Source of the DNA: Nitrosomonadales bacterium
Lineage (GTDB): Bacteria > Pseudomonadota > Gammaproteobacteria > Burkholderiales > Gallionellaceae
Reading direction: 5' to 3'
Assembly (NCBI GenBank): GCA_016195965.1
Contig: JACPYR010000017.1
Location: 1-64,000, forward strand
Length of the DNA stretch: 64,000 nt
The notes beneath the pieces are model-generated. The model ran no database searches, was not told the DNA's origin, and was given only the letters and a program-made list of their open reading frames with translations. A program made the translations under genes and the position numbers. Every line of letters starts with the position of its first letter. Within the stretch, counting starts at the first letter, position 1. This document shows, one piece after another, positions 48,620-52,448 of this stretch.

Positions 48620-50131
48620 TTACTCCGCCAGGTGCCGCGCCTGCCGGGTGGCAGGATTCTTCGCCCGTTTCGGGGCTGGCAAATAGTTTTTCGGTTTCAT
48701 GAACGAGGGCATCTCCTTGCTGCCCGACAGGATGAAATCCTGCTCCAGTGCCGCGCGGGCCGCATCGGCATCTGCCGCGAGCGCGGACTTCAGCCCGCCT
48801 AGCACCAGATCGAACAGCAGGTCCAGCGGGATCTGGTGCGTCTTGCGCGTGGTGTCATACAGCCAGTCTGAAAACGCGAGGAAGCGCGCAAACGGGTCGT
48901 CGGCCAGCAGCAATTCGAGCGCGTGCGGGAAACGTCCGGAGTTGGCGACGAGATCCCAGTAACGGGCAAAACGGGTAAGCCGTTGCATGGTGGAAAAATC
49001 GATGCGGTCGGTGGCTTGCACGGTGTAGGGCGGGTAGGGCGTGTAGCGCATGTCGTAAGCTGCTGTGTGGCGGATGATGGGCGTGCCGCGCAGGCGCTTC
49101 AAGATCCCTACCTGGATCTCCTGCTGCTTGAGTGCGACCAGACGGTTGAATCCTTGCCCCACGCTCTCGATGTCTTCGCCGGGCAGGCCGATGATGAGAT
49201 CGACGTGGACATGCGCGTGGCTTTCATGGCGCAACCAGCGCAGGTTCTCGAAGGTCTTGGCACTGTCCTGTTTGCGCGAGATCAGCGCCTGCACTTCGGG
49301 GTTCAGGGTCTGGATGCCGACCTCGAATTGCAGCGCGCCGGCGGGGAATCGGACGATGAGTTCTTTCAACTGATCGGGCAGGTGATCGGGGATGACCTCG
49401 AAATGCACGAACAGTTTGTCGTCCAGCCGCGCCAGGAAAAACTCCAGGATGCGGATGCCGGCCTTGAGGTTCAAATTGAAGGTTCGGTCGACGAATTTGA
49501 ACTGGCGCGCGCCACGCAGGTACAGCGTGTTGATCTCGGCCAGGAAGGCATCCAGGTCGAAGGCCCAGGCGGTCTTGTCCAAGGACGAGAGGCAGAATTC
49601 GCACTTGAACGGGCAGCCGCGCGAGGCTTCCACATACAGGGTGCGGTGGGCGATGTCGTCGTCGGTATAGAGCGCATAAGGCAGCTTGATGTCGGACAAC
49701 GGCGGCTGGATGCCGGGAATGATCTTCTGCGGCTGCGGATGCCGCCGCAGGAGCTCGCGGCAGAGCTTGGGAAAACTGATGTCGCCCCAGCCGGTGACGA
49801 CGTAATCGGCCAGGCGCACGATTTCCTGCTCATTGCATTCGTAACTGACTTCCGGCCCGCCCAGCACCACGGTGATTTCGGGGGCAACGCACTTCAGTAA
49901 GGCTACCACGCGGGTGATCTCGGTCACGTTCCAGATGTACACGCCGAAGCCGACGATACGCGGCTGGGCTGCCAGCAAAGCCTCGACGATCTCTTCGGTC
50001 CGGTTCTGCAGCACGAATTCCAAGATCCGCGTTTCACCCGCAAGCTCACCCATGTTGGCGGCCAGATAGCGCAGGCCGAGCGAGGCGTGGATGTAGCGCG
50101 CGTTAAGGGTGGAAAGGAGGATGGCGGACAT
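48620..50131 (-). CDS. B12-binding radical SAM protein (DUF4080)
   Basis: The 503-aa protein has an N-terminal cobalamin-binding-like Rossmann domain (about 1-140; VGFGVYIWNVTE and VLGGPEVSYE), a radical SAM core with CPFKCEFC and a C-terminal DUF4080. The substrate is unknown. The B12 domain lacks the DxHxxG His motif as far as I can see, so cofactor binding may be base-off or absent. It lies between lolB and ispE on the opposite strand, an insertion in a conserved neighbourhood. Confidence 0.88.
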   Translation of the reverse strand: MSAILLSTLNARYIHASLGLRYLAANMGELAGETRILEFVLQNRTEEIVEALLAAQPRIVGFGVYIWNVTEITRVVALLKCVAPEITVVLGGPEVSYECNEQEIVRLADYVVTGWGDISFPKLCRELLRRHPQPQKIIPGIQPPLSDIKLPYALYTDDDIAHRTLYVEASRGCPFKCEFCLSSLDKTAWAFDLDAFLAEINTLYLRGARQFKFVDRTFNLNLKAGIRILEFFLARLDDKLFVHFEVIPDHLPDQLKELIVRFPAGALQFEVGIQTLNPEVQALISRKQDSAKTFENLRWLRHESHAHVHVDLIIGLPGEDIESVGQGFNRLVALKQQEIQVGILKRLRGTPIIRHTAAYDMRYTPYPPYTVQATDRIDFSTMQRLTRFARYWDLVANSGRFPHALELLLADDPFARFLAFSDWLYDTTRKTHQIPLDLLFDLVLGGLKSALAADADAARAALEQDFILSGSKEMPSFMKPKNYLPAPKRAKNPATRQARHLAE

Positions 50132-50361
50132 GCGGGTCAGGTGTGGCTGGTCAGAAATCAGGCCGACATGTTACGCTACTTCCGCGCCATCTCGTCATGG
50201 TGCCTGATACCTAATGTCATACTTTCTGCCCTCAATCATTTCCATTTCTAAACAATGCCGATGCGATACTAGTTAGCTAGTCCTCGAGCAAGCTGCTAGA
50301 ATTTATTGATAGTTGGATAAAACCCGGGGCTCAAATTGACTCCCGCCACGAGATTCGCAGA

Positions 50362-51312
50362 ATGAAACTGATTTGCCCCGCGCCTGCCAAATTAAACCTG
50401 TTTCTCCATGTCGTCGGGCGCAGGGCGGGCGGTATGACACGGTGCGCGCAAGCGTCCGGTGCGGGAATGCCGCCCTCCCGCCTCCTCCCGCAATCGGCTG
50501 GCTCCGCCAGTAACGTGTCGGAGGCGGACGGCTATCACCTGCTGCAAACCCTGTTCCGTTTTATAGAGTTGCACGACACCTTGCATTTCGGCCTGCGCGA
50601 AGACGGTGTGGTTCATCGCACCAATGCCGTTGAGGGTGTGCCGGAAGAGCAGGATTTGTGCGTGCGTGCGGCGCGCTTGCTGCAAGCCGAGACAGGCTGC
50701 GGCTTGGGCGTAAACCTCACGGTGGAAAAGCGCATTCCAATGGGCGGCGGCCTGGGCGGCGGCAGTTCTGATGCCGCCACCACGCTGATCGCGCTGAATC
50801 GCTTGTGGTCTTTGGGTTTGTCGCGTTCCCGTCTGATGCAGCTGGGCTTGCGGCTGGGCGCGGATGTGCCGGTTTTCGTGTTCGGCGAAAATGCCTTTGC
50901 CGAAGGCGTCGGCGAGCAACTGCAGGCCTATCCCCTGCCGGAGGCATGGTATGCGGTGTTATTTCCTCCGGTACACGTACCGACCGCACAGATTTTTACG
51001 CATCCAGAATTGACACGCGATACGGTTTCCATCACAATGCGCGCCCTCTCGGAACGGCAATTGTGGGAACAGCAGTTGCATAACGATCTGCAGCCCGTGG
51101 CATGCAAGCTTTATCCCGAGGTGGCGCGTTATATCGCATGGCTGGAAAAATTCGGGAAGGCGATGATGACAGGTTCCGGTGCCTGTGTATTCGCAGAGTT
51201 TGCCAGCCGCAGCCAGGCCGAAGCCGTTTTGCGGGAATTGCCACACGAAATGCGTGGCGTAGTAACACAAGGTTTAGCAAAGCATCCGTTGCATGATTGG
51301 GTGCTTGAGTAA
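50362..51312 (+). CDS. ispE: 4-diphosphocytidyl-2-C-methyl-D-erythritol kinase with insertion
   Basis: IspE phosphorylates CDP-ME in the MEP isoprenoid pathway. The GHMP kinase motif PMGGGLGGGSSDAATTL and the C-terminal MTGSGACVFAEF are intact. At 316 aa it is longer than usual because 33 residues (about 23-55) stand between GRRA and DGYHLLQTLF, which are adjacent in other IspE proteins. The reading frame is kept, so it may still function. It precedes tRNA-Gln and prs as in relatives. Confidence 0.93.
   Translation: MKLICPAPAKLNLFLHVVGRRAGGMTRCAQASGAGMPPSRLLPQSAGSASNVSEADGYHLLQTLFRFIELHDTLHFGLREDGVVHRTNAVEGVPEEQDLCVRAARLLQAETGCGLGVNLTVEKRIPMGGGLGGGSSDAATTLIALNRLWSLGLSRSRLMQLGLRLGADVPVFVFGENAFAEGVGEQLQAYPLPEAWYAVLFPPVHVPTAQIFTHPELTRDTVSITMRALSERQLWEQQLHNDLQPVACKLYPEVARYIAWLEKFGKAMMTGSGACVFAEFASRSQAEAVLRELPHEMRGVVTQGLAKHPLHDWVLE
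50428..50526 (+). repeat. In-frame 99-nt insertion in ispE
   Basis: The segment begins GGCGGTATGACACGGTGCGC and ends GTGTCGGAGGCG. The copy of IspE without it would read GRRADGYHLL. Both edges carry GGGCG/AGGCG, which could be a short target duplication. It is richer in CCTCCCG/GGCGGAG runs than the gene around it. Confidence 0.7.
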
Positions 51313-51320
51313 AGAGTAGA

Positions 51321-51395
51321 TGGGGAGTCGCCAAGTGGTAAGGCACCGGATTTTGATTCCGGCATTCGTAGGTTCGATCCCTACCTCCCCAGCCA
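51321..51395 (+). tRNA. tRNA-Gln (anticodon TTG)
   Basis: Seventy-five bases fold as a tRNA: acceptor TGGGGAG/CTCCCCA, D arm, anticodon stem CCGGA/TCCGG with loop TTTTGAT, T arm with GGTTCGATCC, and an encoded GCCA end. The anticodon is TTG (Gln). It sits between ispE and prs, as in other betaproteobacteria. Confidence 0.95.
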
Positions 51396-51497
51396 GTTTT
51401 CGGGGCGTTAAGCCTCCTGTGCAATTTGCAGGGCGCGAGCCTCTGTGTCGTTTGCGGGGCGTAAGCCCCGTGTGTTTTGATTTTTAAGGGGTCGCTC

Positions 51498-52448
51498 GTG
51501 TCCTACGACAGCTTGATGGTGTTCACCGGCAATGCCAATCCTAAGCTCGCCGAAGCGGTCGCGCGGCATCTGCACATACACCTGGGTCGCGCCACGGTAG
51601 GGCGTTTTTCCGATGGCGAAGTTATGGTCGAGCTGCTTGAGAATGTGCGCGGTCGGGACGTTTTCGTGTTGCAATCCACTTGTGCGCCAACCAATGACAA
51701 CCTGATGGAAGTGATGGTGATGGTGGATGCGCTCAAACGCGCTTCTGCCGGACGCATTACCGCCGCGATGCCGTATTTCGGTTACGCGCGCCAGGATCGC
51801 CGCCCGCGTTCGGCGCGAGTCGCGATTACCGCCAAACTGGTCGCGGATATGCTGAGCAGCGCCGGGGTGGACAGGCTGCTGACGATGGATTTGCACTCCG
51901 ACCAGATTCAGGGCTTCTTCGATATCCCGGTGGACAATATTTACGCCAGCCCCATCCTGCTGTCCGACGTGTGGAAGAATAACTACCCGAATCTGATTGT
52001 GGTATCGCCGGACGTGGGCGGCGTGGTACGCGCCCGTGCGCTGGCCAAACAGATGGACGCGGATCTGGCGATCATCGACAAGCGCCGTCCCAAGCCGAAT
52101 GTGGCCAAGGTAATGAACATCATCGGTGAAGTGGCGGGACGCACTTGCCTGATCATGGACGACATGGTGGACACCGCCAACACCTTGTGCGAAGCGGCCA
52201 ACGCGCTGAAGGAAAAAGGCGCGACGCGCGTGCTGGCTTATTGTACCCACGCGGTATTGTCCGGCCCGGCGATCGAACGCATCGAGAATTCCGCGATGGA
52301 TGAGCTGGTGGTCACCGACACCATTCCATTGAGCGAAGCGGCACGCAAGTGCAGGCGTATCCGCCAATTGAGCACGGCAGAATTGCTGGCTGAGACGATA
52401 CGCCGCATCAATAACGAAGAGTCGGTGAGCTCGCTGTTTACCGAGTAA
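51498..52448 (+). CDS. prs: Ribose-phosphate pyrophosphokinase
   Basis: Prs makes PRPP from ribose 5-phosphate and ATP. The 316-aa protein (from GTG 51498 with AAGGGG six bases upstream) has [21 protein letters not shown] and the PRPP-binding loop [13 protein letters not shown]. The track start TTG 51477 would add seven non-conserved residues. Confidence 0.96.

Follow-up and report, generated by a model that had tools for sequence, protein, structure and literature searches.

Until now, the Rickettsia palindromic elements (RPEs) have been an unusual case of mobile DNA by which peptides are added to proteins. A 2024 review of RPEs regarded a similar process in other prokaryotes as 'conceivable' (PMC10969869). 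Miniature inverted-repeat transposable elements (MITEs) and the hairpins of repetitive extragenic palindromic (REP) sequences and bacterial interspersed mosaic elements (BIMEs), which are mobilised by REP-associated tyrosine transposases (RAYTs), are non-autonomous repeats that occur in many copies and have no coding capacity of their own. In the IS110 bridge RNA system, each half of a loop is complementary to one half of a junction, the ends form a circle-like junction and insertion occurs without duplication. Here we describe an insert in the ispE gene of an uncultured iron-oxidising bacterium that resembles each of these systems in part. The window analysed, a stretch of 64,000 nucleotides, is contig C34 of a Gallionella-type draft genome (2.73 Mb, 83% complete). 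With a probability that we put at roughly two in three, the insert is a copy of a non-autonomous, MITE-like palindromic mobile element of about 100 nt in the Gallionellaceae, moved and sited as proposed below. A literature search on palindromic, REP or MITE elements in Gallionella found no description of it.

The open reading frame at 50362-51312 of the forward strand encodes IspE, 4-diphosphocytidyl-2-C-methyl-D-erythritol kinase, scoring 260.5 bits against the NCBIfam equivalog TIGR00154 (cut-off 138.7) and matching PDB 1oj4 on both sides of the insert. In this protein 33 additional residues (GGMTRCAQASGAGMPPSRLLPQSAGSASNVSEA, or the same stretch displaced by one) separate GRR (GRRP) from DGYH. 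In eight aligned relatives (L011-L018) the site is uninterrupted, as in the example CGCAGGCC^GGACGGCTA, and the net gain is 99 nt, which bears out the in-frame insertion proposed by a first-pass annotation. The element reported there at 50428-50526 is real, while its exact span is one base off, at 50427-50525. It matches the covariance model R1 with 116.6 bits and leaves the ispE frame open throughout, with the predicted junction peptide LLPQSAGSASNVSEADGYHLLQTLFR. The same nucleotide carries the element in two further genomes (loci L009 and L010), so that an assembly artefact of this metagenome-assembled genome (MAG), considered in the first-pass annotation, can be set aside. The majority of the window's relatives have an ispE without insert. 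In an AlphaFold2 model of IspE (55 sequences), residues 23-57 have a predicted local distance difference test (pLDDT) score below 50 and no secondary structure, the remainder is well folded and the insert connects strands 2-20 and 59-79; the model thus predicts a disordered loop. Codon-position variability is equal in intragenic and other copies. There is therefore no sign that the inserted peptide itself is selected, and selection at the protein level was rejected. A plasmid search with ispE returned nothing but distant enterobacterial ispE. The ispE of the groundwater MAG JACREB01 (L010:3001-4176) contains two copies in tandem, of which the first harbours a double nested insert; the reading frame is nevertheless open over its full length.

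A search of the same genome with the ispE segment, as suggested in the first-pass annotation, yielded seven more copies by BLAST (E values 4e-26 to 2.5e-9), so that the ispE element is not a chance sequence; a covariance model built from nine copies found eight in all. In the genus Gallionella, 42 of 61 genomes contain matches, up to 58 per genome, in counts that include some copies scored on both strands. Across the Gallionellaceae, matches were found in 95 of 150 genomes and 13 of 15 genera, and other families of the order contain weaker relatives with the plan GACACGG...GCGGG-loop-TCCCGCAA...GTAACGTGTC. The gene context was established for each locus separately. Of the 68 inspected copies, 46 lie within an open frame of 200 codons or more, which is an upper figure because some of these frames are fortuitous, on the strand opposite a real gene. 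All ten copies checked with Pfam lie in recognised proteins, namely dapF, phosphoglucomutase, hisF, sucA (2-oxoglutarate dehydrogenase E1), murG, argS, pgi, ligA, an AMP-binding enzyme and a nucleotidyltransferase that we read as galU. Further hosts, read from the sequence by eye without a tool, are gltD, uvrD, rlmI, secF, hrpA, yhdP and a YfiH-like protein. In the window's own genome six of the eight copies are inside genes, in sense orientation in ispE, argS and sucA and in antisense orientation in an AMP-ligase and, by sequence reading, in transglutaminase-like and YfiH-like proteins. The element would be a second case of mobile DNA adding peptides to proteins, this time in free-living bacteria that hold up to 58 copies per genome, and many normally essential enzymes are hit. 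It raises the question of how IspE, ArgS, MurG or HisF bear a foreign loop of 33-53 residues.

The general plan of the element comprises an L' end of 9 nt, arm A (GACACGG...GCGGGA), a 19-nt loop, arm B (TCCCGCAA...CGCCAGTAACGTGTC) and an R' end of 6-10 nt. In ispE, on the forward strand, L' (GGGCGGTAT) occupies 50427-50435 and pairs with 50467-50475, and R' (GGAGGC) occupies 50520-50525 and pairs with 50480-50485. The core between them (50436-50519) has terminal inverted repeats, GACACG...CGTGTC, and carries no transposase. It consists of arm A (50436-50466), conserved among the copies of alignment A1, the variable loop ATGCCGCCCTCCCGCCTCC (50467-50485) and arm B (50486-50519), which reads TCCCGCAATCGG-CTGGC(TCC)GCCAG-TAACGTGTC and is invariant in A1. 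The loop is the reverse complement of L' followed by that of R'; when the ends are joined and read R' then L', the junction is approximately antisense to the loop. Among 83 distinct copies, 98.4% of the pair cells are paired, compared with 34-60% after sliding by 1-3 columns. In 255 cells both sides have changed, and none of 500 shuffles reached the observed covariation. In the helix formed by L', double changes occur at all 9 pairs; the helix formed by R' (5 pairs counted) also covaries and is 99.3% paired. The 83-copy alignment was fitted to the structure, and a nine-copy MAFFT alignment gives the same covariation result. Within families that have R' in common, the left end pairs with its own loop at 8.77 of 9 positions and with the loops of other copies at 7.06 of 9; pairing with the own loop was better in 54 of 60 copies and worse in 2. 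Core plus ends measure 98-102 or 158-162 nt, and tandem copies have one end segment in common, with a period of 98-99 nt. A circular dumbbell fold was tried and given up, being modestly better than shuffles in five of six copies and not for the galU copy. A Rfam scan of 50000-51600 showed only a tRNA above its gathering score, and the element matches no described RNA family.

Eleven loci were aligned with a relative that lacks the insert. Inside genes, net gains are 99, 102 or 159 nt, every one a multiple of three. The joins read target left half, element, target right half, without clean duplication. The short target duplications suspected in the first-pass annotation were thus not borne out, and the product reads as an insertion without duplication at a site resembling R'-L'. 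The empty sites resemble the R'-L' junction of their own element (Fisher, combined p 2e-8) and not that of the other subfamily (p 0.11). This sequence likeness suggests that the element may recognise its target through a match to the sequence of its own ends. Adaptation of the guide to the target after insertion was rejected, as same-site copies differ in L' independently of the target.

The distribution of the element at single sites was assessed by phylogeny. In a tree of the 2.3 kb downstream of the ispE insert, L010 falls in a different clade from the window and L009, and L012, which has no insert, is the sister of L009 with full support. Joining the three bearers in one clade was rejected by the approximately unbiased (AU) test (p-AU 1e-4), as was joining the window with L009 (p-AU 8e-6), and at least three changes are needed. 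At the hisF-hisI junction the element is found in ten rows (nine genomes) and is absent from 21, while some rows scored 'other' look like additional carriers. Five changes are required, and a single clade of bearers was rejected less strongly than at ispE (p-AU 0.012). The empty site TCGAGGTGCGGTTATGA compares with the element junction GGAGGTGCGGTTAT; the insert lies outside reading frames and the gain is 98 nt. By sequence reading, the GA of the core restores the upstream stop codon and R' provides GGAGG before the downstream ATG. The insertion at this junction (L131:1191-1298; own-genome L002) lies at an overlapping stop-start ATGA, where several genomes have an extra spacer. The same-nucleotide pattern at ispE and hisF-hisI is explained by recurrent insertion, by precise loss or by an exchange of tracts that are very short; the tree tests do not separate gain from loss.

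We propose that the element would be excised or copied as a unit and that its joined ends would form R'-L'. An unlinked enzyme would then integrate it at R'-L'-like chromosomal sites with no duplication of the target, and each sub-lineage would consequently keep hitting the same sites in a homing-like manner. Intragenic insertions would survive only if they add a multiple of three nucleotides and keep the frame open. In ispE, the element would be translated as a disordered loop of 33 residues at the turn joining the first strand to the second and would be tolerated by the enzyme.

Several observations weigh against this proposal. The loop alone, used as query, resembles the targets weakly (p 0.003), and the same copies also contributed to deriving the junction consensus T1/T2; guide-like targeting is therefore supported, not proven. 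No autonomous element was found: in the window's own genome all eight right ends lie in full short copies, as do nearly all of those in genome G048 and those in G103, and no long version with the same ends was found in these three genomes. No linked mobilising enzyme was found either. The number of Y1 transposases is only weakly correlated with copy number, at a rho of 0.28 (raw, kinship ignored), genomes with 6, 12, 14 and 21 copies gave no Y1 hit, and the 30 Y1 loci checked have no copy of the element within about 1.5 kb. A Y1 transposase or RAYT as the required enzyme is thus unsupported. The same holds for IS110, which is absent from G048 (36 matches), G047 (21), G103 (13) and G085. The non-clade distribution could also stem from precise loss or from recombination of short ispE tracts between species. 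Finally, translation of the insert into protein is inferred.

The strongest competitor is a plain structured MITE, in which the covariation of ends and loop only keeps hairpins for enzyme binding and the target likeness reflects a fixed taste of the enzyme for G-rich, GTGGCGG-like sites, with neither guiding by the loop nor homing. We consider this a serious possibility that falls somewhat short of even odds. Identical L' and R' recur at unrelated sites, so the ends are element-borne, and same-site copies differ in L' without following the target (L099 compared with L141 in gltD; L101 compared with L139 and L140 in pgm). The weak likeness of loop and target alone points in the same direction. 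However, the targets follow the junction of their own subfamily rather than a shared consensus, and the recurrence at the same nucleotide speaks against a plain MITE. In a more far-reaching version of our proposal, the element may be a minimal guide-bearing homing element, whose 19-nt loop, antisense to its own joined ends, would direct a host or phage enzyme to matching sites. Across species, a gene-less sequence of 100 nt would thereby re-invade essential genes at the same codons and be tolerated there as a multiple of three with an open frame. We regard this version as rather doubtful.

Horizontal exchange of short gene segments that bear the element, instead of new insertions, might also produce the patchy distribution at ispE and hisF-hisI, and we think this unlikely. 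The ispE cores of the three bearers are 97.6% identical, compared with 80-86% for ispE to the right, and at orthologous sites the cores are 92-100% identical, nearly always above the flanks (mostly 75-91%). Such core identity between species, far above that of the flanks, could mark short exchanged tracts. Against this, the flanks beyond about 30 bases have diverged like whole genes, so that the tracts would have to end near the element every time, and sites occupied by the 84-nt version in one case hold the 144-nt version in another. Removal of the element after transcription in a splicing-like manner, or skipping by the ribosome, so that the enzyme is made without the loop, appears very improbable. 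It would fit with imperfect flanking repeats, stable hairpins and a core conserved above the coding flanks in essential genes, but removal would require neither the open frames of the listed intragenic copies nor gains in multiples of three, and copies at gene junctions show the same degree of conservation. The reading of the insert as an old, lineage-specific functional loop of IspE, although three genomes have it in common, is practically untenable, because the dispersed copies put the same element in many unrelated genes, the sister L012 and most relatives have no loop and the bearers are not one clade.

Returning to the described systems, the element was likened to RPEs in the first-pass annotation, which was right in kind. 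Both are dispersed palindromic repeats of about 100-150 bp with many copies, inserted in frame in unrelated protein-coding genes and with a conserved peptide (PMC10969869). Unlike RPEs, the element resides in Betaproteobacteria, its ends covary with an internal 19-nt antisense loop, its targets resemble its own end junction and it recurs at the same nucleotide across species. It appears to behave like an RPE, beside which we place it by description; with its different host lineage, it is not filed as a member. Terminal inverted repeats, dispersed copies and the lack of a transposase are shared with MITEs, and many non-autonomous hairpin copies without coding capacity also with REP and BIME. 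In contrast to these, clean target duplications are missing, no full element with the same ends was found in the window's genome (83% complete), G048 or G103, none of the 30 Y1 loci checked is flanked by copies and insertion in genes is frequent. The IS110 bridge RNA system (PMC11208160) parallels the element in the match of loop halves to junction halves, the circle-like junction and duplication-free insertion. However, the element has one loop instead of two and contains no recombinase gene, with IS110 lacking in some high-copy genomes. The PARCEL palindromic amphipathic repeats (PMC2996958) likewise are palindromic sequence in frame inside coding genes; they are described as intragenic tandem repeats, whereas the Gallionellaceae element occurs mostly as single copies in housekeeping enzymes. 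As a second case with empty sites and evidence of recurrent insertion or loss at one nucleotide, the element makes both the choice of site and the tolerance of the loop testable.

In the 144-nt copies, the arm-B loop houses a nested second palindromic family, ATAACCAGC-GACTTGGC-stem-loop-GCCTAGTC-GAATGGCTAGTAGTT, which has copy-specific stems of its own and for which arm B is the entry point. Examples of this family are L010:3147-3260, L140:717-770 and, in the window's own genome, G000:C80:900-930. It also occurs alone, with 7 pattern matches in the own genome, 46 in G016 and 12 in G039, the last of which is without any copy of the first family. The intergenic copies L096, L098, L125, L135 and L137 have a common longer left flank, AGGGGGAAGGTTGGGATGG...GGGGGTAGAA, as though the element had inserted into a different dispersed repeat. 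Similarly, the 83-nt copies L005, L120 and L128, from three genomes, are flanked by TCTAAAAATCGTAGCGAGGTTG...AAGAGCAAGGCG, apparently another repeated intergenic sequence.
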